Assembly (NCBI GenBank): GCA_937902985.1
Contig: CALFNG010000107.1
Location: forward strand, 1 to 36,405
DNA: 36,405 nucleotides
Direction of reading: 5' to 3'
From: an uncultured Myxococcales bacterium
GTDB lineage: Bacteria; Myxococcota_A; Polyangia; Polyangiales; Polyangiaceae
Within the stretch, counting starts at the first letter, position 1, and every line of letters starts with the position of its first letter. Shown piece after piece: positions 27,225 through 36,371 of the stretch. The notes under the pieces are model-generated. The model worked only from the letters and a program-made list of their open reading frames with translations, made no database searches and was not told the origin of the DNA. The position numbers were made by a program, and so were the translations under genes.

Positions 27225-29714
27225 TCAGAGAGCCGCGGGCGCGGCGGCGGGCGCCGATGCGTGGTCGCCCGCCGGGCCAGCGCCGGGCCCATCGCCCTCG
27301 GAGGCCTCGACCACGGCCCGCTTGTACCCGCACTCCTTGTTGGCGCACGCAATCATCGGCTTGGCGCGCGTACCGCCCATGATGAGGAACGGCGCGGCGC
27401 AGTTGGGGCACGGCTCGTCGATCGGCTTTTGCCAGAGCTTGAAGTCGCACTTGATCGACTCGTTCGTGTAGTTCGAGCAGCCGTAGAACGGGCGCCCGCC
27501 ACGCTTTTTCGAGCGGATCTCGATGATGTCGCCGCCGCACTTCGGGCACTTGACCCCCAGCGGGATCGGCTTGGCGTTCTTGCACTCCGGGTAGCCGGTG
27601 CAGGAGAGGAACTCGCCGAAGCGACCGCTCCGGATCACCATCGGCTTGTTGCACTTGTCGCACGAGATTCCGGTCTCGCGCGGCTGCGTGGGGTTGCCGT
27701 CGGCGCCGAGGTCGCGCGTGCTCTTGCACGCGGGGTAGTTGGCGCAGCCGAGGAACCACCCGTTCTTCGACCAGCGCTTGAGCATCACGCCGCCATCGAG
27801 CTCACACTTCTCGTCGGTCGGCTCGGGATCGGGGTTCCAGCGTTTGCCCTTCTTGCTCAGATCGAGCTGCGACCGGAAGCGCTTGTAGAAGCGCTTCAGC
27901 AAGTCGACCCGGTTCTCTTTGCCCGCTTCGACCTCGTCGAGCTCCTCTTCCATCTTCGACGTGAAGGTGGGATCCATGAAATCGAGCTCGCTCCGGACCA
28001 GCCCGTCGACCACGAACTTGCCGAGCAGGGTGGGCCGGAACCGCGCCCCGTCGATCTTCTCGACGTAGTCGCGCGCCTGCACCTTGCTGATGATCTCGGC
28101 GTACGTGCTCGGTCGGCCGATGCCGCGCTCCTCGAGCTCCCGCACGAGCGTGGCCTCGCTGTAGCGCGGCGGGGGCTGCGTGAACTTCTGTTCGGTGATG
28201 ACCCCGGGAGGCGTGACGAGGTTCAGCGCCTGGCCCTCGTCGAGCTCGGGCAGCGTGGCCTCGGCGTCCTCGGCGAGCAGGTCCTTCGCGCGCGCCGCCT
28301 CGGTGCCGCTGGCGCCGTCGGCGGCCTTCGAATTCGAAGCGCCGTTGGTCTCGGCGTCGCCCTTTTCGTCGTCGCCCTCGCCGGCGAGGGGCGTCGGCTT
28401 CGCGGTCTCGGCCTTGCCGTACGCCTCGAGCCAGCCGCTGAACTTGAGGATACGACCGCTCGCCCGGAGGCCGTATGCAGACGGACCGGAGGCGGGCTTC
28501 GCGTCGATGTCGATGCTCGTCTGGTCGTAGACCGCTTGCGACATCTGCGACGCGACGAAGCGCTCCCAGATCATCTTGTACAGCTTGAACTGCTCGTCCT
28601 TGAGGTGCTTGCGCACGCTCTCGGGGGTCAGGTCCATACCCGTCGGGCGGATGGCTTCGTGCGCGTCCTGCGAGTTCTTCTTCGACTTGAAGACGTTCGG
28701 CTGCGCCGGGGTCCACTCTTTGCCGTACGTCTCGACCACGTAGTCGCGCGCGGCGTTCACGGCGTCGGGCGAGAGGCGCGTCGAATCGGTACGCATGTAT
28801 GTGATGAGGCCGACGGGCCCGCCGTCTTTGCCGAGGTCGATGCCCTCGTAGAGGCCCTGCGCGATCTGCATCGCGCGCTTGGCGCCGAAGCCGAGCCGGT
28901 TCACCGCGTCTTGCTGAAGCTTGCTCGTGGTGTACGGAGCCGGCGCGTTCCGCTTGCGCTCGTTCTTGGTGACCTTGGCGACGGAGAAGCGGGCCTTCTC
29001 GAGATCGGCGCGTACCCTGGCTGCATCGTCGCCGTTCTTGACGGCGAGCTTCTCCCCGTCGCGCGACACCAGGCGCCCGACGAAGGGGCGCGCCGACTCT
29101 TTCGTGTCGCCCGCCCGCTCGGGGATGAGGGACGCCCCGCAGTTCCAGTACTCCTCGGGGACGAACGCCTCGATCTCGCGTTCGCGGTCGACGATGAGTC
29201 GGAGCGCCACGCTCTGCACACGCCCAGCGCTCAGGCCGAAGGCCAGCTTGCTCCACACCAGCGCCGACACGTCGTACCCGACGATGCGGTCGAGAACGCG
29301 CCGGCAGCGCTGCGCGTCGTAGAGGTCTTTGTCGAGCTCGCGCGGGTGCGCGACGCCGTACTCGACCCCCTTCTTGGTGATCTCATGGAACTCGACCCGC
29401 TTCGTCTTCTTCTTGGCTGGCCTGAGCTCGTCGGCGATGTGCCAGGCGATGGCCTCGCCCTCGCGGTCGGGGTCGGTCGCCAGCAAGATTTCGTCGACAT
29501 TTCGGGCGGCCTCTTTCAGGTCCGCGACGACCTTTTCCTTGCCCGGGACGACCTCATACGTCTCTTGAAAGCCCTTTTCGATGTCGATGCCGAGCTTCTT
29601 CGGCAGGTCCTTGATGTGCCCCTTCGATGCAATGACGTCGAACCCCGACCCGAGATACTTCTTGATCGTCTTCGCCTTTGCAGGCGACTCGACGACTACG
29701 AGCGTCTTTGCCAT
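27225..29714 (-). CDS. topA: DNA topoisomerase I
   Basis: TopA relaxes negative supercoils. The 829-aa product starts 'MAKTLVVVESPAKAKTIKKY' (toprim), has the acidic site 'TDPDREGEAIAWHI' (80-93), catalytic Y306 in 'YMRTDSTRLS', and 'EERGIGRPSTYAEI' (528-541). The C-terminus has four topoisomerase zinc ribbons: first C637/C657/C663 (the second expected Cys is D640), then C685/C688/C705/C711, C723/C726/C746/C756 and C769/C772/C790/C795. A charged low-complexity insertion fills about 433-488, between two conserved parts of the core. An AGAGAAG lies upstream of the ATG, and a perfect AT-rich palindrome lies 19 bases before the start. It follows dprA directly, a gene order found in many bacteria. 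Confidence 0.97.
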   Translation of the reverse strand: MAKTLVVVESPAKAKTIKKYLGSGFDVIASKGHIKDLPKKLGIDIEKGFQETYEVVPGKEKVVADLKEAARNVDEILLATDPDREGEAIAWHIADELRPAKKKTKRVEFHEITKKGVEYGVAHPRELDKDLYDAQRCRRVLDRIVGYDVSALVWSKLAFGLSAGRVQSVALRLIVDREREIEAFVPEEYWNCGASLIPERAGDTKESARPFVGRLVSRDGEKLAVKNGDDAARVRADLEKARFSVAKVTKNERKRNAPAPYTTSKLQQDAVNRLGFGAKRAMQIAQGLYEGIDLGKDGGPVGLITYMRTDSTRLSPDAVNAARDYVVETYGKEWTPAQPNVFKSKKNSQDAHEAIRPTGMDLTPESVRKHLKDEQFKLYKMIWERFVASQMSQAVYDQTSIDIDAKPASGPSAYGLRASGRILKFSGWLEAYGKAETAKPTPLAGEGDDEKGDAETNGASNSKAADGASGTEAARAKDLLAEDAEATLPELDEGQALNLVTPPGVITEQKFTQPPPRYSEATLVRELEERGIGRPSTYAEIISKVQARDYVEKIDGARFRPTLLGKFVVDGLVRSELDFMDPTFTSKMEEELDEVEAGKENRVDLLKRFYKRFRSQLDLSKKGKRWNPDPEPTDEKCELDGGVMLKRWSKNGWFLGCANYPACKSTRDLGADGNPTQPRETGISCDKCNKPMVIRSGRFGEFLSCTGYPECKNAKPIPLGVKCPKCGGDIIEIRSKKRGGRPFYGCSNYTNESIKCDFKLWQKPIDEPCPNCAAPFLIMGGTRAKPMIACANKECGYKRAVVEASEGDGPGAGPAGDHASAPAAAPAAL

Positions 29715-29732: not shown

Positions 29733-29748
29733 AATATCGTGCGATATT
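29733..29748 (-). promoter_or_regulatory. Candidate operator palindrome before topA
   Basis: AATATCG-TG-CGATATT is a perfect 7+2+7 inverted repeat, markedly AT-rich in this GC-rich DNA, ending 18 bases before the topA ATG and touching the dprA stop codon. A dimeric regulator, or a supercoiling-sensitive element, could act here. No matching second copy was noticed in this window. Confidence 0.5.
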
Positions 29749-30659
29749 CAGCGATTGTGAGCATCTCGTCGGCGGAAGAAGCCCGGCGGGCCCTCTACTA
29801 GTACGTTCTCCAAAGCAAGCGTCAAGAGCGCGGCGGTGGTCGCCTGGGGGGATAACCCCGCATCTTCGGCGATCGCGTCGGTGTGCCGAGGTTTCGGGGA
29901 CGTCGCCCGTAACGTTGCGGATTCGTGATCAGAAAGCGGCGGCGGCGGCTGCAGTGCGGGAGCGCCGGGGAGGGCATCGGCGCCGCAGTCTGACCGGGGG
30001 CGAATTTGGGCGCGGAGACCGAGCGATTCGAAGAGCGGGGCAAAGGATCGGAGCGGCAGAGCTCCCTCATCGAGGAGCCGGCCCGAACCGTCGAACCTCC
30101 TTAGCCAAGGCGCCGCCGCAACGACCCACAAGGGCTTGCTCGTTCGCTGAGCCCATACGGCGGCGTTGAGCGCCCCCGACGGCTGACCGGCCTGAACGAC
30201 GACTACGGCGTCCGACATTCCGACCAGGTACCGATTGCGGGTGAGGAACGCGCTGGGGGCCGAAAAGGCCTCGCCGAATGGCCAGATCATGGCGCCGGGG
30301 CCCTGGGCAATCTCATCGAACAGGGCCCTGTTTTTTTTCGGAAAACAGCGCTTGTGACCCGTGCCGGCGACGACCCAGGTACGTCCGTTGCTGCTCATGG
30401 CGCCGCGGTGCGCGGCCTCGTCGACGCCGTGCGCCCCGCCCGATACCACCACGACATCGGCCGCCGCGAGCATGGCGGCAAGCTCGTGAGCGAAGCGCTT
30501 CGCGCCCGGGGTCGCAGCCCGCGAACCAACGATGGCGACCGTCCGCGCCGCCTCGATCGTGCCCCCGCTCACCATGATGGAGGCGGGGGGCCGCTCGATG
30601 TTGCGCAGGCGGGAAGGGTACCGGGGATCGAGCAGCGTGAGCTGAACGGGAGGGGCCAT
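29748..30659 (-). CDS. dprA: DNA processing protein DprA/Smf
   Basis: DprA loads RecA on incoming single-stranded DNA in transformation. The 303-aa product has the Rossmann-like core 'TVAIVGSRAATPGAKRFA', 'VVVVSGGAHGVDEAAHRGAM' (usually SGLARGID..AH.GAL), 'TWVVAGTG', 'PSAFLTRNRYLVGMSDAVVV' (P..F..RNR.i.glsd..vV) and 'PSGALNAAVWA' (SGAL.TA...A). The N-terminal SAM/HhH domain is short or absent, since the core begins about residue 9. The end has a DML1-like winged-helix stretch ('DAIAEDAGLSPQATTAALLTL'). The Gly/Val/His changes in the SGLARGID motif make it a divergent member. A run of eight A's encodes 'PKKN' near residue 108. It is 33 bases upstream of topA, on the same strand. Confidence 0.92.
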   Translation of the reverse strand: MAPPVQLTLLDPRYPSRLRNIERPPASIMVSGGTIEAARTVAIVGSRAATPGAKRFAHELAAMLAAADVVVVSGGAHGVDEAAHRGAMSSNGRTWVVAGTGHKRCFPKKNRALFDEIAQGPGAMIWPFGEAFSAPSAFLTRNRYLVGMSDAVVVVQAGQPSGALNAAVWAQRTSKPLWVVAAAPWLRRFDGSGRLLDEGALPLRSFAPLFESLGLRAQIRPRSDCGADALPGAPALQPPPPLSDHESATLRATSPKPRHTDAIAEDAGLSPQATTAALLTLALENVLVEGPPGFFRRRDAHNR

Positions 30660-30753: not shown

Positions 30754-31548
30754 TTACTTGTTCTTCGAGTAGACCTGGACCGCGACCGGACCGCTGCCCG
30801 CTTGCGCGAACACATCGAGCCGGTACTGCAGCGGGAACATCAGGACGGGGCACATCGGGCTCGGCGCGCCGCCGATGACGGGCGTGTTGTTGTGGGTCAA
30901 GTCCTGCCCGGCCAGGGTGTTCACCAGCGTCAACAAGTTGAGGTCCAGGTTCTTCACGGCGCCGAGCGGCGAGAAGCCGACGACCGTGTAGCACTTGCCG
31001 GCTTGCATCGTGACCAGCATGACCACGTGCTGGCCTTCGGTCATGTTTTGCTTCAGCTGGTCGCCTTCGGGCTGCATGCCAGGCGCGAGACGGAAGGCCT
31101 GGGCTTTCAGGCCGACATCGGTGAGATCACCGATGCCGCCCGGCGTCACCGTCTGGCCGCCGAGCGCACCTTGCAGGCCGTTGAGGATACCCTGCAAGCT
31201 GTTGGGGTCGGTGGGCGCGAGCGTCCCGGTGGGCGCTGCGGTCGGCGCGGTCTGCGCCTGTTGAGGCATCGGCTGGGCGGTCGGGTATCCCGCGGGCTGT
31301 GTCGGATACCCTTGTGGCTGCGCCGTGTATCCCGCGGGCGGCTGCTGCGCGGGATAGCCGGGCGGGTAGCCCGGCTGCGCCGGATATCCAGCGGGCGGCT
31401 GGCCGACCGTCGCCGCGCCGTTGGCCGTCGTGGGCTGCGCGTTGCTGCTGCCGCCGCACGCCGCGGCGAGCGGAACGACCGCCATCGCGCCGAGCGCGAC
31501 CACCGACCAAGCCTTGACGCGTCTTCCTCGACCTGCATTCTCGTTCAT
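30754..31548 (-). CDS. Lipoprotein with YPxQP-type repeats
   Basis: ATG 31548 has a very good Shine-Dalgarno (GGAGGAGG) 8 bases upstream. The 264-aa product has a lipoprotein signal, 'AWSVVALGAMAVVPLAAAC', with Cys at residue 31. Residues about 45-90 are Gly/Tyr/Pro/Gln-rich short repeats ('GYPAQPGYPPGYPAQQPPAG', 'YTAQPQGYPTQPAGYP'), probably a flexible surface-reaching linker. The C-terminal ~130 residues are a compact domain with 'QHVVMLVTMQAGKCYTVVGF' and 'CPVLMFPLQYRLDVFAQAGS', two Cys possibly forming a disulphide, and a terminal beta strand 'GPVAVQVYSKN'. No family is recognised. The next gene upstream on the same strand, 150 bases away, is the zinc-ribbon/GYF protein. Confidence 0.75.
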   Translation of the reverse strand: MNENAGRGRRVKAWSVVALGAMAVVPLAAACGGSSNAQPTTANGAATVGQPPAGYPAQPGYPPGYPAQQPPAGYTAQPQGYPTQPAGYPTAQPMPQQAQTAPTAAPTGTLAPTDPNSLQGILNGLQGALGGQTVTPGGIGDLTDVGLKAQAFRLAPGMQPEGDQLKQNMTEGQHVVMLVTMQAGKCYTVVGFSPLGAVKNLDLNLLTLVNTLAGQDLTHNNTPVIGGAPSPMCPVLMFPLQYRLDVFAQAGSGPVAVQVYSKNK

Positions 31549-31698: not shown

Positions 31699-33291
31699 CT
31701 ATTGACGCACGAACTTGTACGAGAAGCTCGTTTTCTGGGCGCAGCCCATCGCCGGAAAGCGCCAGCCCCGGACGTCGTTCTCGATGCACTTGGCAACGGA
31801 GAGCTCGTCGCTCGAGGCCGAGACATTCTGCGCGCTGCCGTCCGAGCCGACCGTCATAGTGACGCTGACGTTGACGCTCGGCTTCGTCGTCGGACTGCGT
31901 TCCCAGCACGTGCGCCGAATGGCGACCGCGTGGAGGCTCATGACCTGGCTCACCTGGCCGCTCGAGAGGCACTGTCCGGGCGCGGCGGGCTCGCCCCCGC
32001 CGGGGTCTTCGCCCGGCGCAATGTTGGCGCCCTGCGAGAGGCCGTGGAGATCGAGCGACCGCCCCGTTGACGTCGGCGCGGCGGGCGCCGCGTGCGACCC
32101 GCCGTTTCCGGCGCGCGGGGCCGTCGTGTTCATGCCGAGGGACACGCTCGCGGCCGGCTCGGACGCCGCGGTCGCGGTCGGCGCGGCCTGCGCTGCGGCG
32201 GCCTGAGGAGCGGCTGGGCTCGCGGGCACTTGCACGACGACCTGCGCGGGCGGCGATTGCTTGAAGAAGACCGAGATCCCGAACACCGTGCCGAAGGCCA
32301 CGGTGCCTGCGATCATCGCTATGGCCATCCACGGCGGCTGCTTTCGAGCTGGCGCGTAAGGTGGCGGCAGCGACGAAGCGACGACCGCGGGTTCGCCGGG
32401 CGGCGCGATGGTGGCCGGCGATAGCGCTGTCGCAACCGGAACCGCGAACGGATCGGGCGCTGCTGCGAACGAGGGGAGCGCGCCGATCTCGGTAGGCGCG
32501 TCGTCGAGCCGCTCGGCGGTCGCGAGGCGTGCGGTGAATGGCACGACGTTGCTTCGCGGCGCCGGCCCCGGCGTCTGCAACGGCCGCGACGAGATGGCGC
32601 GCGCGACAGGGATGCCCCCGCTCACGCCCCCCGAACGGGGTGGCGGGCGCGGGGCGGGAGGAACTTGGCTGTGCCTCGCGTCCGGCGGCGGGGGCGTGAT
32701 GGAGATGCGTCCGCCCGCGGCGGCCTCGCGAACGTTGGCCGCCAGATCGGGGAAGGTCTTGAGCGGGCGCCACTCGTCGAGGCCCTCTTGCCAGACGAGC
32801 GACTCTTCGGTGACGGCGCCGAGGGCGGCCTTGCGCCGCACTTCGGCGACGCGGATCGGCCCGACGGGCACGCCGTTGACGGCGACGTACCAGTCGTCGC
32901 CCGGTGCCAGATCGGCCATGTCGAAGGGCGCGGATCCCTCGTCTTCGCGCTGCACGTTGCTCTTGAACGCGCCCGCGAGCGCGCCCCCGGAGCGCTCTGG
33001 CTTCTGAGGGGCCGGCTTGGCGGACGTGAGGCTCGTGGCGAGGGCGCTCGGCTTCGGCGGCGGCCGCGCGGGGGGCTTTGGCGGAGCGGGTCTAGAAGGC
33101 GTCACGGCCGTACCGCCGACGGCAGACGCCTGGCCGCCAGGGCTGCTGCCAATGGCGCTCGATTCCGTGATTTCGGCTCGAAGCTCGATGAGATGCCCGC
33201 ATTTGCGGCACTTCATCCGCACCGTCTTGCCGGCGACCTTGTCGTCGGCGATCTGGTATTTCGCCTTGCACTGTTCGCAGAAAAACTTCAC
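31699..33291 (-). CDS. AgmX/GltJ-like protein: zinc ribbon, GYF, one TM, TonB-like C-terminus
   Basis: GTG 33291 starts 'VKFFCEQCKAKYQIADDKV', an MJ0042-type zinc ribbon with C5, C8, C28 and C31. A Pro-rich linker follows, then a GYF_2-like domain at 134-180 ('WYVAVNGVPVGPIRVAEV', 'LVWQEGLDEWRPL'), a disordered part, one membrane helix at about 322-343, another Pro/Ala linker, and a periplasmic C-terminal domain with 'SVNVSVTMTVGSDGSAQNVS' and 'CIENDVRGWRFP', the pattern of TonB/AgmX C-terminal domains. Cys 441, 462, 502 and 517 may form disulphides. The order of parts is that of Myxococcus AgmX/GltJ, whose cytoplasmic zinc ribbon and GYF regions contact the small GTPase MglA. No other gliding genes are nearby, so this may be a paralogue with another envelope role. 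530 aa. Confidence 0.85.
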   Translation of the reverse strand: MKFFCEQCKAKYQIADDKVAGKTVRMKCRKCGHLIELRAEITESSAIGSSPGGQASAVGGTAVTPSRPAPPKPPARPPPKPSALATSLTSAKPAPQKPERSGGALAGAFKSNVQREDEGSAPFDMADLAPGDDWYVAVNGVPVGPIRVAEVRRKAALGAVTEESLVWQEGLDEWRPLKTFPDLAANVREAAAGGRISITPPPPDARHSQVPPAPRPPPRSGGVSGGIPVARAISSRPLQTPGPAPRSNVVPFTARLATAERLDDAPTEIGALPSFAAAPDPFAVPVATALSPATIAPPGEPAVVASSLPPPYAPARKQPPWMAIAMIAGTVAFGTVFGISVFFKQSPPAQVVVQVPASPAAPQAAAAQAAPTATAASEPAASVSLGMNTTAPRAGNGGSHAAPAAPTSTGRSLDLHGLSQGANIAPGEDPGGGEPAAPGQCLSSGQVSQVMSLHAVAIRRTCWERSPTTKPSVNVSVTMTVGSDGSAQNVSASSDELSVAKCIENDVRGWRFPAMGCAQKTSFSYKFVRQ

Positions 33292-33381
33292 CGTCCGCTC
33301 CCGAGGACCCACAGTACCTGAACGTGACCGTAGCAAGGAAGGGCGAGCCGCCGCGAAGCCTTGCATGGGTACCCGGAGCGC

Positions 33382-34884
33382 TCAGATGAGCTGGCGCAAG
33401 TGGACTCTGACCGACGCGGCGGTCTCCTCGTCGGGCGCCAGAACTACGCAGCGCGCCCACATCTCGATGGCCTTGTTCTTGAAGCCGGCCTTTTCGTAGA
33501 GCACGGCAAGGTTCTTCAGCGCCGCGAAGTGCTTGGGGTGAAGCTCGATGGCGTGTTCGAGCTCCTGGATCCCCTCGTAAATCTGGCCCTTCTTGCCGAA
33601 AAGCAACGCGAGGTGGAAGTGGAGGCGATAGGACAGCGGGTCGATGCTCACTCCGCGTTTCAAGTGCTCGATCGCCTCGTCCATCAGGCCACCCTTGTAG
33701 GCGACGATGCCATCGCGTAGGGCCCTCTCGGCCTCGGCCGAGAGGTACTCCGGGTCGCGCGACTGCGAAGAGGGCTCGTTGCGCGCGTTTCCCTCGGCCT
33801 CCTCTTGCCGTGAACGGAGCAGTCGGCTCACGACCTCGAGGATGCTCGCGATGCGGAACGGCTTCTCGAGGTACTCTTCGACGCCGTAGTTTTGCTTCAA
33901 GTCGTCGGCGACGCGCGGCCCGCGGTAGACGGCGCTCACCATGACGATCGGGATGCGCCCGTACTTGGCGCTTCCCTTGATCCTGCGCGCGATGTCGAAC
34001 CCGTGGAGCTCCGGGAGCATCGCGTCGAGCACAATGAGATCGGGGAGGTGCTCCTTGACCATGCGAAGGGCGAGCAAACCCCGGTCGGCTTCGATGACGC
34101 GATAGCCTTGTTGTGCGAGGACTCGCCCGAGGAGCAGGCGGATGTCTTCTTCGTCGTCGACGACCAAGATCAACTTGCCGCCGCCTGCGCGAGCAGCGAT
34201 TGCTTGGTTTGCGAGCGCGCGCGGGTCCTCGGGCAGGCTCGCGACCTGCGACACCTCCTCGCCGATGACGCCGAACTCGCTGGTCGAGACCTCGGACTCG
34301 CGCGAAGCCGCTTCGACCGCCTCGTCGACGACCACCTCCGGTGAGGCCGGGGCCGCAGCCTCCCCGGGCACCGGCAAGCCTAGGGAGCGCAAGGTCTCCG
34401 CCGGCGCGCGGGGGCCGATGTAGTGGAGCGCGTTGTTCGCCTTCGCGTCGTACGCCGCAGCGATGGCTTTCGTCAGCGTCGAGTGCACCGCGATGTACGA
34501 GTAGACCTTCTTGCCCGTAACGAACTCGAGCTCGTCGACGACGCGCTTCTCGTGCGGGTCGGCGGCCGCGAGGAAGATGCGGTCTCCGCGCACGAGCACG
34601 GGCAAGATGAGGTGCGTCTGGGCGAGGTCGCGGGGGACGACGTCGAGGTGCTCGAGCGCGATCACGATCTGCGTGAGGTCGATCCCGGGGACGCCGTACT
34701 GCTCGGACAGCGCCCGGAGCGCATCGACCTCATCGACGGTCCCGTCGTCGACGAGCTGAGAGGCGAGCGGCGTCGGCGTCACGGCCCGCTTCTGCTCGCG
34801 CAGCGCCGCGTCGAGCTCCTGCTGAGACACCAGCTTTCGCTGGAGAAGGATCTTGCCGAGAGGCCGCTTCTCGTCGCTGGACAT
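33382..34884 (-). CDS. MshEN-like domain + receiver + TPR protein
   Basis: ATG 34884 gives 500 aa. Residues 5-145 resemble the N-terminal domain of type II/IV secretion ATPases (GspE/PilB/MshE, MshEN): 'RPLGKILLQRKLVSQQELDA' and 'VVPRDLAQTHLILPVLVRGD'. The key MshEN motif is RLGxxL..xG; here Arg is displaced (R-P-L-G) and the Gly is a Lys, so cyclic-di-GMP binding is doubtful. A disordered linker follows. Residues about 236-357 are a receiver domain: acidic pair D243/D244, phosphoacceptor D287 in 'LIVLDAMLPELHG' and K341 in 'EKPF'. The C-terminus (383-490) holds about three TPRs ('GIVAYKGGLMDEAIEHLKRG', 'LFGKKGQIYEGIQELEHAIE'). There is no ATPase domain. It probably acts as a phosphorylation-dependent adaptor. 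It sits between tgt and the AgmX-like gene. Confidence 0.88.
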   Translation of the reverse strand: MSSDEKRPLGKILLQRKLVSQQELDAALREQKRAVTPTPLASQLVDDGTVDEVDALRALSEQYGVPGIDLTQIVIALEHLDVVPRDLAQTHLILPVLVRGDRIFLAAADPHEKRVVDELEFVTGKKVYSYIAVHSTLTKAIAAAYDAKANNALHYIGPRAPAETLRSLGLPVPGEAAAPASPEVVVDEAVEAASRESEVSTSEFGVIGEEVSQVASLPEDPRALANQAIAARAGGGKLILVVDDEEDIRLLLGRVLAQQGYRVIEADRGLLALRMVKEHLPDLIVLDAMLPELHGFDIARRIKGSAKYGRIPIVMVSAVYRGPRVADDLKQNYGVEEYLEKPFRIASILEVVSRLLRSRQEEAEGNARNEPSSQSRDPEYLSAEAERALRDGIVAYKGGLMDEAIEHLKRGVSIDPLSYRLHFHLALLFGKKGQIYEGIQELEHAIELHPKHFAALKNLAVLYEKAGFKNKAIEMWARCVVLAPDEETAASVRVHLRQLI

Positions 34885-34956
34885 GTCTCGCCGACTCTGG
34901 CCCAGGCTACGCGGACCGGGAACCCCGCACAACGCCCGGCGCGCGCCGCTTTCGCT

Positions 34957-36150
34957 TCAGATGACGGCGTCGCCGCCCGGCGAGTGCACGCCGCTCGCGG
35001 CGTCCGTGCTGCCGGCCTCTTGCATGTTCTCGAGCAGTCGGTTCGCCCAGGCGTCGAAGCGCCCCGCCTCGATTGACGCCCGCGCGCAGGCCACGATCTC
35101 GCCATAAAAGTGGAGGTTGTGAAGCGACAACAGGCGCAGGCAGAGAATTTCTCCCGCGATGTAGAGGTGCCTCAGATACGCGCGCGAGAAGCCGCCCGCG
35201 CAGCACTCGCAGGCGCAGGCCTCGTCGATGGGGCGCTGGTCGTCCTTGTAGCGGGCCTGTTTGATCACGACGCGGCCGGCTCGCGTGAGCGCCTGGCCGT
35301 TTCGCGCGTTTCGCGTGGGCAAGACGCAGTCGAACATGTCGGCCCCGGCGCGGATCGCGACGAGGAGGTCGAGGGGCGTTCCCACGCCCATCACGTAGCG
35401 CGGGCGAAGCTCGTCGAGCGTCGAGGTCACCTCGGCGAGCGTCTCGTGCATCCGAGCGAGTGGCTCTCCGACGGAGAAGCCTCCGAGGGCCAGTCCGTCG
35501 AACGGGAGCGCCCCGAGCTCGTCGGCGTGGGCCCGGCGAAGATCGGCGAAGCACCCGCCCTGAACGATCCCGAAGAGCGCCTGGCTCTCGCGTCGCGGCG
35601 CCGCGAGAGCGCGCTTCGCCCAGCGGGTCGTCCGGGCCACCGCCTCTTCGACCACCGCCCGAGGCGAGTCGCCGGGCGGGCACACGTCGAGCTGCATCTG
35701 CACGTCGGCGCCGATGAGTCCCTGCACGCGGACGGCGTCTTCGGGCGTGAGCGTGTGCTTCGACCCGTCGAGGTGGGACTTGAACGCGAAGCCCTCTTCG
35801 GCCAGCGTGACCAGCGACTTCGGCCCCACCGCCGAGAGCGAGTACGCCTGGAAGCCGCCCGAGTCGGTCAACATCGCGTGCGGCCAACGCGTGAACGCGT
35901 GCAGACCGCCTGCATCTGCGATTGCCTGAGCGCCGGGCCGCAGCATCAGGTGGTAAGTGTTGCCGAGCACGACGCGCGCGCCCGTCGATGCGACCTCGCG
36001 GGGCGAGAGCGTCTTGACGCTCCCCTGGGTCCCGACTGGCATGAACGTCGGCGTGTCGACCGGGCCGTGCGGCGTCTCGAAGACCGCGCGTCGCGCGTGC
36101 CCGTCGCGAGCGATGACGCGGAACGTGAACCCGGCGGTCGGCGGGATCAA
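34957..36150 (-). CDS. tgt: tRNA-guanine transglycosylase
   Basis: Tgt exchanges guanine-34 of certain tRNAs for preQ1 in queuosine synthesis. The start is TTG 36150, overlapping the queA stop (TTGA), with GGAGAG six bases upstream; there is no in-frame ATG before the conserved '[20 protein letters not shown]'. The product is 397 aa. Motifs: '[17 protein letters not shown]', '[10 protein letters not shown]', '[12 protein letters not shown]' (first catalytic Asp; usually GGFQVFSL), '[12 protein letters not shown]' (usually DECTP or DVC.p), 'FGIVQGG', '[10 protein letters not shown]', '[11 protein letters not shown]', second Asp in '[15 protein letters not shown]', and the zinc site C-x-C-x2-C...H ('CACECC' with a His about 25 residues on). 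It should be active. Confidence 0.96.
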
Positions 36151-36371
36151 GCGTCTCTCCAGAGGAGCATTGCGTCGCCGTAGGAGAAGAACCGGTAGGC
36201 CTCGCGGACCGCGAGGCCGTAGGCGTCGAGCGTCCGCTCTCGACCGGCGAACGCGGCGACGAGAGCGAGCAAGGTCGACGACGGCAAATGGAAATTCGTG
36301 AGCATTCCGTCGACGACGCGCCAACGGTAGCCCGGCTGGATGAGCAGCCGCGTCTCGTTCTCCGCGACCTT
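36147..36371 (-). CDS. queA: QueA (S-adenosylmethionine:tRNA ribosyltransferase-isomerase), 3' fragment
   Basis: Only the C-terminal ~74 residues remain: '[20 protein letters not shown]', '[20 protein letters not shown]' and '[17 protein letters not shown]', all strongly QueA-like. The open frame appears to start with 'MLFRS' upstream, but those codons come from the adapter at the end of the window and are not biological. QueA transfers the ribosyl part of SAM to preQ1-modified tRNA, the step after Tgt, and the two genes overlap by 4 bases, so queuosine genes are co-expressed here. The rest of the gene lies beyond the true contig end. Confidence 0.95.

Follow-up and report, generated by a model that had tools for sequence, protein, structure and literature searches.

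The closest described counterpart of the protein considered here is GltJ (AgmX, MXAN_4862), a component of the Agl-Glt machine of Myxococcus in which a zinc ribbon, a GYF domain, a single membrane helix and a TonB-type tail follow one another. Attia et al. are said to have shown in 2024 that GltJ binds MglA-GTP and AglZ via cytosolic motifs. According to the accessible part of PMC12288465, GltJ is one of the effectors of MglA on the gliding machine. GltG (PglI) and GltJ are both termed TolA/TonB-like in the accessible sections of PMC5349195, which place GltG in contact with the motor protein AglR of the Agl-Glt machine. GltG likewise has a TonB-type C-terminal domain after one helix, as TonB and TolA do, and it also possesses an FHA domain (accessible text of PMC3169522). 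The same text reports a gltJ-holding gene group in Myxococcales, for example in Sorangium and Haliangium, on the basis of blastp and PSI-BLAST, and describes the nfs sporulation cluster, a close relative of glt, as being without GltI, GltJ and GltK. Therefore, glt-like gene sets that lack GltJ are known.

The window (the whole stretch of DNA analysed, 36,405 nucleotides from the draft genome of an uncultured Myxococcales bacterium) encodes a protein of this layout, together with the following features.

31699 to 33291, minus strand: GltJ/AgmX-like membrane protein of 530 amino acids, with a GTG start at 33291 and the stop at 31699
33187 to 33291, minus strand: zinc ribbon of this protein, residues 1-35 (Pfam Zn_ribbon_4; GltJ structure 7zok)
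32743 to 32892, minus strand: GYF domain, residues 134-183 (Pfam GYF_2; GltJ structure 7z3c)
32272 to 32331, minus strand: single membrane helix, about residues 321-340 (320-339 in the AlphaFold model, pLDDT about 64), its core free of His and charged residues
31708 to 31959, minus strand: TonB-type C-terminal domain on the periplasmic side, in which two Cys are invariant (NCBIfam myxo_SS_tail, under its cut-off in the whole protein and over it in the genome search; structure model, Foldseek, Cys columns)
33382 to 34884, minus strand: MshEN-receiver-TPR protein (Pfam; ATG at 34884 chosen by eye, reading frame open to a TTG at 34932)
30754 to 31548, minus strand: Pro-rich putative lipoprotein, a neighbor only (lipobox by eye; no Pfam family)
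34957 to 36324, minus strand: tgt, queuine tRNA-ribosyltransferase, the upstream neighbor (Pfam TGT; start approximate)

The start of the 530-residue protein was set at the GTG at 33291 rather than at an in-frame ATG at 33366, which would add 25 residues, because the GltJ relatives that were read open at the zinc ribbon, where the pattern M-[KR]-[FV]-x-C is the protein start. Downstream of the lipoprotein gene lie dprA (29748-30659) and topA (27225-29714), a housekeeping setting, and the upstream side holds tgt and a queA fragment recognized by eye.

Several comparisons agree on the domains of this protein. First, the zinc ribbon scored 42.3 bits against Zn_ribbon_4 (cut-off 30.3) and the GYF domain 55.9 bits against GYF_2 (cut-off 25.8), and a search of PDB sequences returned both solved domains of GltJ, its zinc ribbon at E 8.7e-9 (7zok) and its GYF domain at E 2.5e-6 (7z3c). 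The AgmX/PglI C-terminal domain model (NCBIfam NF033768) matched residues 445-528 with 35.9 bits in the whole protein and 40.2 bits in the genome search, around its cut-off of 40. Second, a full-length AlphaFold model (mean pLDDT 62.7, pTM 0.32) has ten-residue blocks at 80-92 in the zinc ribbon, 93-96 in the GYF domain and 87-94 in the C-terminal domain; the membrane helix reaches only about 64, and the linkers are mostly below 55. Alignment of the full model with VIA-align gave Z 7.7 for the Tic56 GYF domain 7vcf, 6.9 for the GltJ GYF domain 7z3c, 6.6 for the TonB C-terminal domain 9ddz and 4.2 for the ZitP zinc finger 2nb9, values which are middling on their own. Third, when a separate model of the C-terminal domain (pLDDT 81.7) was submitted to Foldseek, 17 of the 19 highest-ranking rows were TonB, TolA, FusB or HasB domains, the other two being a DUF5043 protein. 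The best E was 0.012 and no row reached E <= 0.001, so that the TonB-type assignment of the modelled domain is clear by the kind of match rather than by E-value; the helix-strand-strand-helix-strand fold of TonB and TolA is present in the models and is retrieved by both Foldseek and VIA-align. Collectively, these comparisons bear out the preliminary description of a GltJ/AgmX-type architecture, its GYF fold included, and the order of zinc ribbon, GYF domain, one membrane helix and TonB-type tail is the same as in GltJ. Compared to ZitP, the protein has a zinc-ribbon fold in common; ZitP is not known to carry a GYF or TonB domain.

This likeness is not due to chance. Matches to the protein at E <= 0.001 were found in 56 of 58 related genomes, many of them paralogues. 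A search of genome contigs with the whole protein as query returned no relative, and an Rfam scan of the DNA gave nothing at the gathering score.

Despite the shared architecture, the protein is set apart from GltJ itself. The NCBIfam model of GltJ (NF033761) gave it 83.4 bits, far under the 450-bit cut-off; the model exceeded that cut-off in none of the 188 genomes of the phylum, a result of little weight since matches there were scored piecewise (60.8 bits for the window's protein when scored piecewise). Named GltJ loci were identified via PDB sequences instead (76 loci, including that of M. xanthus AM003). A zinc ribbon and a GYF domain occur in 65 open reading frames of these loci, and 43 of the 65 also have a tail and are adjacent to gltI, that is, accompanied by a GltI match of more than 150 bits within the same locus.

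Trees built from 187 columns of three domains separated the two groups. In a tree of 88 rows, from which the long or doubtful rows L161, L175, L177 and L086 were omitted and in which the GltJ rows had been thinned to 15, the family of the window's protein (32 rows) and the GltJ clade (23 rows) each received support of 99/98. An earlier tree of 100 rows, with GltJ rows thinned to 27, gave 99/86 for the window's clade (96/85 with the long row L161, which stands at its base on a branch of 1.86) and 98/94 for the GltJ clade. Proteins without a detectable tail were omitted from the trees, as were those with a tail match shorter than 65 residues in the 100-row tree. An AU test rejected, at p 1e-4, a grouping of M. 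xanthus GltJ with the window's family apart from the other GltJ rows, the group having been named only after the tree was seen. When the window's family and GltJ were set against 30 rows of other paralogues (L319, L326 and L336 left out), the branch uniting them received 85/82, which is not decisive in an unrooted tree. The window's family is therefore no more than a possible sister of GltJ.

The same separation is seen along the protein. Three conserved stretches of GltJ, before the GYF domain, after it and in an acidic periplasmic region, are present in 41, 43 and 41 of the 43 GltJ proteins, counts that are not independent since the models were built from 40 of these 43; none of the three was found in 29 members of the window's family or in 13 members of a second paralogue family. 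The periplasmic part has a median of 197 residues (154-238) in the window's family versus 274 (226-307) in GltJ. The gene is also not next to gltI, the GltI homologue of this genome being on contig C527 and the window on C107. An identification as true GltJ was rejected on the missing stretches, the separate clade and the low model score. The preliminary description had put the gene away from a gliding cluster, and it is indeed not beside glt genes; the placement outside the GltJ clade also agrees with that description.

Gliding-type genes are nevertheless present elsewhere in this genome, in which both mglA and further glt genes had been proposed as a check. An open reading frame on contig C510 matches the solved MglA structure with 361 bits, and a Roadblock-domain (mglB-like) frame of 67 bits directly precedes it; mglBA is the known gene order. 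A full-length GltG homologue lies on C375 (296.6 bits, below the model's 650 cut-off, in a search of eight genomes), and C527 encodes a GltI homologue, roughly 3,800 residues long, after a TPR frame recognized with Pfam. GltI was identified by its matches in the named GltJ loci, and GltG by its model, below cut-off. In related genomes, the gene set around the GltG homologue, including GltI, stands in conserved order; GltD and GltE are names given there by position only. GltJ was not found in the window's genome, a draft of 563 contigs and 96 % completeness in which an assembly gap may account for this. Two relatives assembled in one contig, G022 and G047, give the same picture, with GltG and GltI homologues and no GltJ: their GYF_2 places belong to the window's family, to the second paralogue and to frames that the models do not recognize as full zinc-ribbon/GYF/tail proteins. 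In none of seven genomes (G000, G018, G022, G025, G028, G037 and G047) do the 11-18 kb that follow gltI contain a zinc-ribbon/GYF gene. The three GYF_2 places of the window's genome are this protein, a tail-less paralogue and a short weak frame.

Because homologues of mglA, GltG and GltI are present and no GltJ was found, a role in a Glt complex is possible. One alternative explanation is that the protein is the GltJ counterpart of its lineage. It would derive from the same ancestral gene, would have moved away from gltI and changed its linear motifs, and would continue to serve a gliding machine of the Agl-Glt type, with the GltG and GltI homologues encoded elsewhere. The mglA and Roadblock genes, the absence of GltJ from the GYF_2 places of G022 and G047, the seven gltI loci without a zinc-ribbon/GYF gene and, though not decisively, the 85/82 branch are in keeping with it. 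However, all 29 family members examined are without the three GltJ stretches, their periplasmic part is shorter, their conserved neighbor is a different one and the model score is far under the GltJ cut-off, and we regard this explanation as somewhat unlikely. Nor is the architecture peculiar to gliding: M. xanthus AM003 has four GYF_2 places, among which GltJ and a 649-residue protein both carry zinc ribbon, GYF and tail by the models and another carries GYF and tail (three of the four places were read). The published blastp and PSI-BLAST survey of gltJ-holding genomes may include hits to families like the one described here.

A recurrent neighbor at the locus is the MshEN-receiver-TPR gene. 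In 18 of 20 loci that contain a GltJ-like gene, tblastn placed this partner directly upstream on the same strand, with 21-170 nt between its stop and the start of the zinc ribbon; the two exceptions are L102 and L103. Conversely, in 27 of the 29 loci fetched by the partner, the GltJ-like gene begins 5-246 nt downstream, and the remaining two (G239 and G032) run off their contigs yet still show a piece of it; eight genomes are common to the two sets. Among 12 further, mostly weaker, partner loci, seven have no GltJ-like gene, including both Anaeromyxobacter loci, and five are paired, three of these being genomes already counted. The 88-row tree gives a similar result: 27 of the 32 rows of the window's clade are adjacent to an MshEN gene, and for the other five no partner was detected, some of which may sit at contig borders. 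The partner was found at E <= 1e-30 in 41 of 282 genomes, and neighbors were read in 30 listed loci, the window included, and in the further loci. In six Myxococcaceae or Archangiaceae genomes, the partner matches listed span the receiver or the MshEN part only. The link with an MshEN-REC-TPR protein is thus a gene pair that is conserved in most related loci.

Gene order inherited next to tgt, with two proteins doing unrelated jobs, could in principle give the same pattern, as tgt too was matched in 13 of the 20 loci; but the pair also stands without a tgt match, for example in L099, L100 and L101, and its short gaps recur across several family codes, which leaves such an explanation improbable. 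The lipoprotein gene downstream, which the preliminary description had correctly named as the other neighbor, was matched in just 4 of 20 loci, and as a poorly conserved neighbor it was rejected as a core part.

The partner's own domains give some indication of what it could contribute. The phospho-acceptor Asp of the receiver is kept in 36 of 36 rows, as is the Lys. By eye, both Arg and two Gly of the c-di-GMP-binding MshEN motif (a pair of RLG...Q motifs), as defined in the accessible text of PMC5013675, are changed in the partner, in which the domain itself is present, and the motif is largely missing in several of its relatives. Because of this degraded motif, the case for c-di-GMP as part of the signal appears weak. 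Bd2402, an MshEN-receiver protein in the same portion of PMC5013675, also combines these two domains; compared to such proteins, the partner adds TPR and has the degraded motif. A ligand of a GYF domain would be Pro-rich, and so is the linker of the partner, but no fixed Pro motif that could serve as a candidate ligand was seen in it.

The membrane helix bears on whether the protein is energised or passive. No His, Asp, Glu, Lys or Arg occurs in the helix core of any of 29 members of the window's family, a property shared with 38 of 39 GltJ proteins (one has such a residue). The S-x3-H motif is important in TonB. It was seen by eye in six of seven GltG segments, the script having taken another stretch in the seventh, and it is absent from the membrane helix of the window's protein, which has neither this motif nor the FHA domain of GltG. 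Because its helix is without the GltG-type S-x3-H, the protein is, as far as its sequence tells, probably not itself coupled to a proton-driven motor. The TonB/TolA C-terminal fold would fit a TonB-like energy transducer that is powered by a channel of the ExbBD/TolQR type and serves either transport across the outer membrane or a motor in the envelope. With a helix core free of His and charged residues in 29 of 29 members and no such channel gene among the 15 open reading frames of the window scanned against Pfam, this explanation is most improbable and was rejected on the helix.

We consider it about an even chance that the protein is a non-energised trans-envelope scaffold with GltJ architecture, belonging to a family separate from GltJ and working with a phospho-receiver partner. 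Its branch is separate and usually stands beside a signalling gene, so the protein probably represents a related scaffold that spans the envelope and has a controller of its own. Such a scaffold would sit in the inner membrane, with the zinc ribbon and the GYF domain serving as docking sites in the cytosol; the Pro-rich linker, the one helix and some 190 periplasmic residues with a TonB-type end could bring it into contact with the periplasm or the outer membrane. Its most likely cytosolic partner would be the co-encoded MshEN-receiver-TPR protein, and phosphorylation of the receiver may decide when docking takes place, a control suggested by the kept phospho-acceptor Asp. Like GltJ, the scaffold would link or position other components, with force supplied by a separate transducer. 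The domains with their order and folds, the clade, the gene pairing and the lack of the GltJ stretches and of S-x3-H are observed; binding of the two proteins, phospho-control and outer-membrane contact are what we infer, and the process served might be polarity, gliding or envelope assembly. A more specific version, in which this protein, as a sister of GltJ, fills the GltJ slot of the gliding machine in its lineage, the receiver-TPR partner replaces the cytosolic control that MglA exerts via GltJ in Myxococcus and assembly of the trans-envelope complex is switched by phosphorylation, seems to us rather unlikely.

The suggestion of a different trans-envelope device is thus borne out in part: the MshEN-REC-TPR pairing is conserved in most related loci, but the lipoprotein is a poorly conserved neighbor and, with gliding-type genes elsewhere in the genome, a role in a Glt complex is also possible. 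The same layout with a different conserved neighbor suggests a trans-envelope scaffold that can be reused, and it raises the question of whether a stand-in for GltJ operates where homologues of MglA, GltG and GltI are kept but GltJ is not. A survey of the openly accessible literature on GltJ/AgmX and MshEN proteins, which took in few subscription papers, turned up no description of the window's family, and this silence is a weak argument for novelty.

Several minor observations were also made. The last 34 bases of the contig (36372-36405, minus strand) are an Illumina adapter-like sequence, which we take to be such an adapter and which looks like an artefact. Two relatives encode an MglA-like GTPase, about 55 % identical to the MglA of the window's genome, at some distance past the end of gltI: about 7 kb in G047 (L242:8169-9017) and about 9.5 kb in G037 (L244:5789-6562). 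In the window's own genome, a frame about 16 kb beyond gltI on C527 (L308:17599-19001) appears MshEN-like by eye, with the partner model silent. A paralogue on C132 of this genome (L003, L256) has a zinc ribbon, a GYF domain, a hydrophobic helix and a short Cys-rich tail, with no detectable TonB-type domain. Other Myxococcota paralogues, including the M. xanthus 649-residue protein, have the same zinc ribbon, GYF, membrane helix and tail domains as the window's family; the second family of this kind in the relatives (L257-L272) differs in a shorter spacing between zinc ribbon and GYF and in its neighbors, with a gene for a double-zinc-ribbon membrane protein just upstream in both loci checked (L258 and L266).
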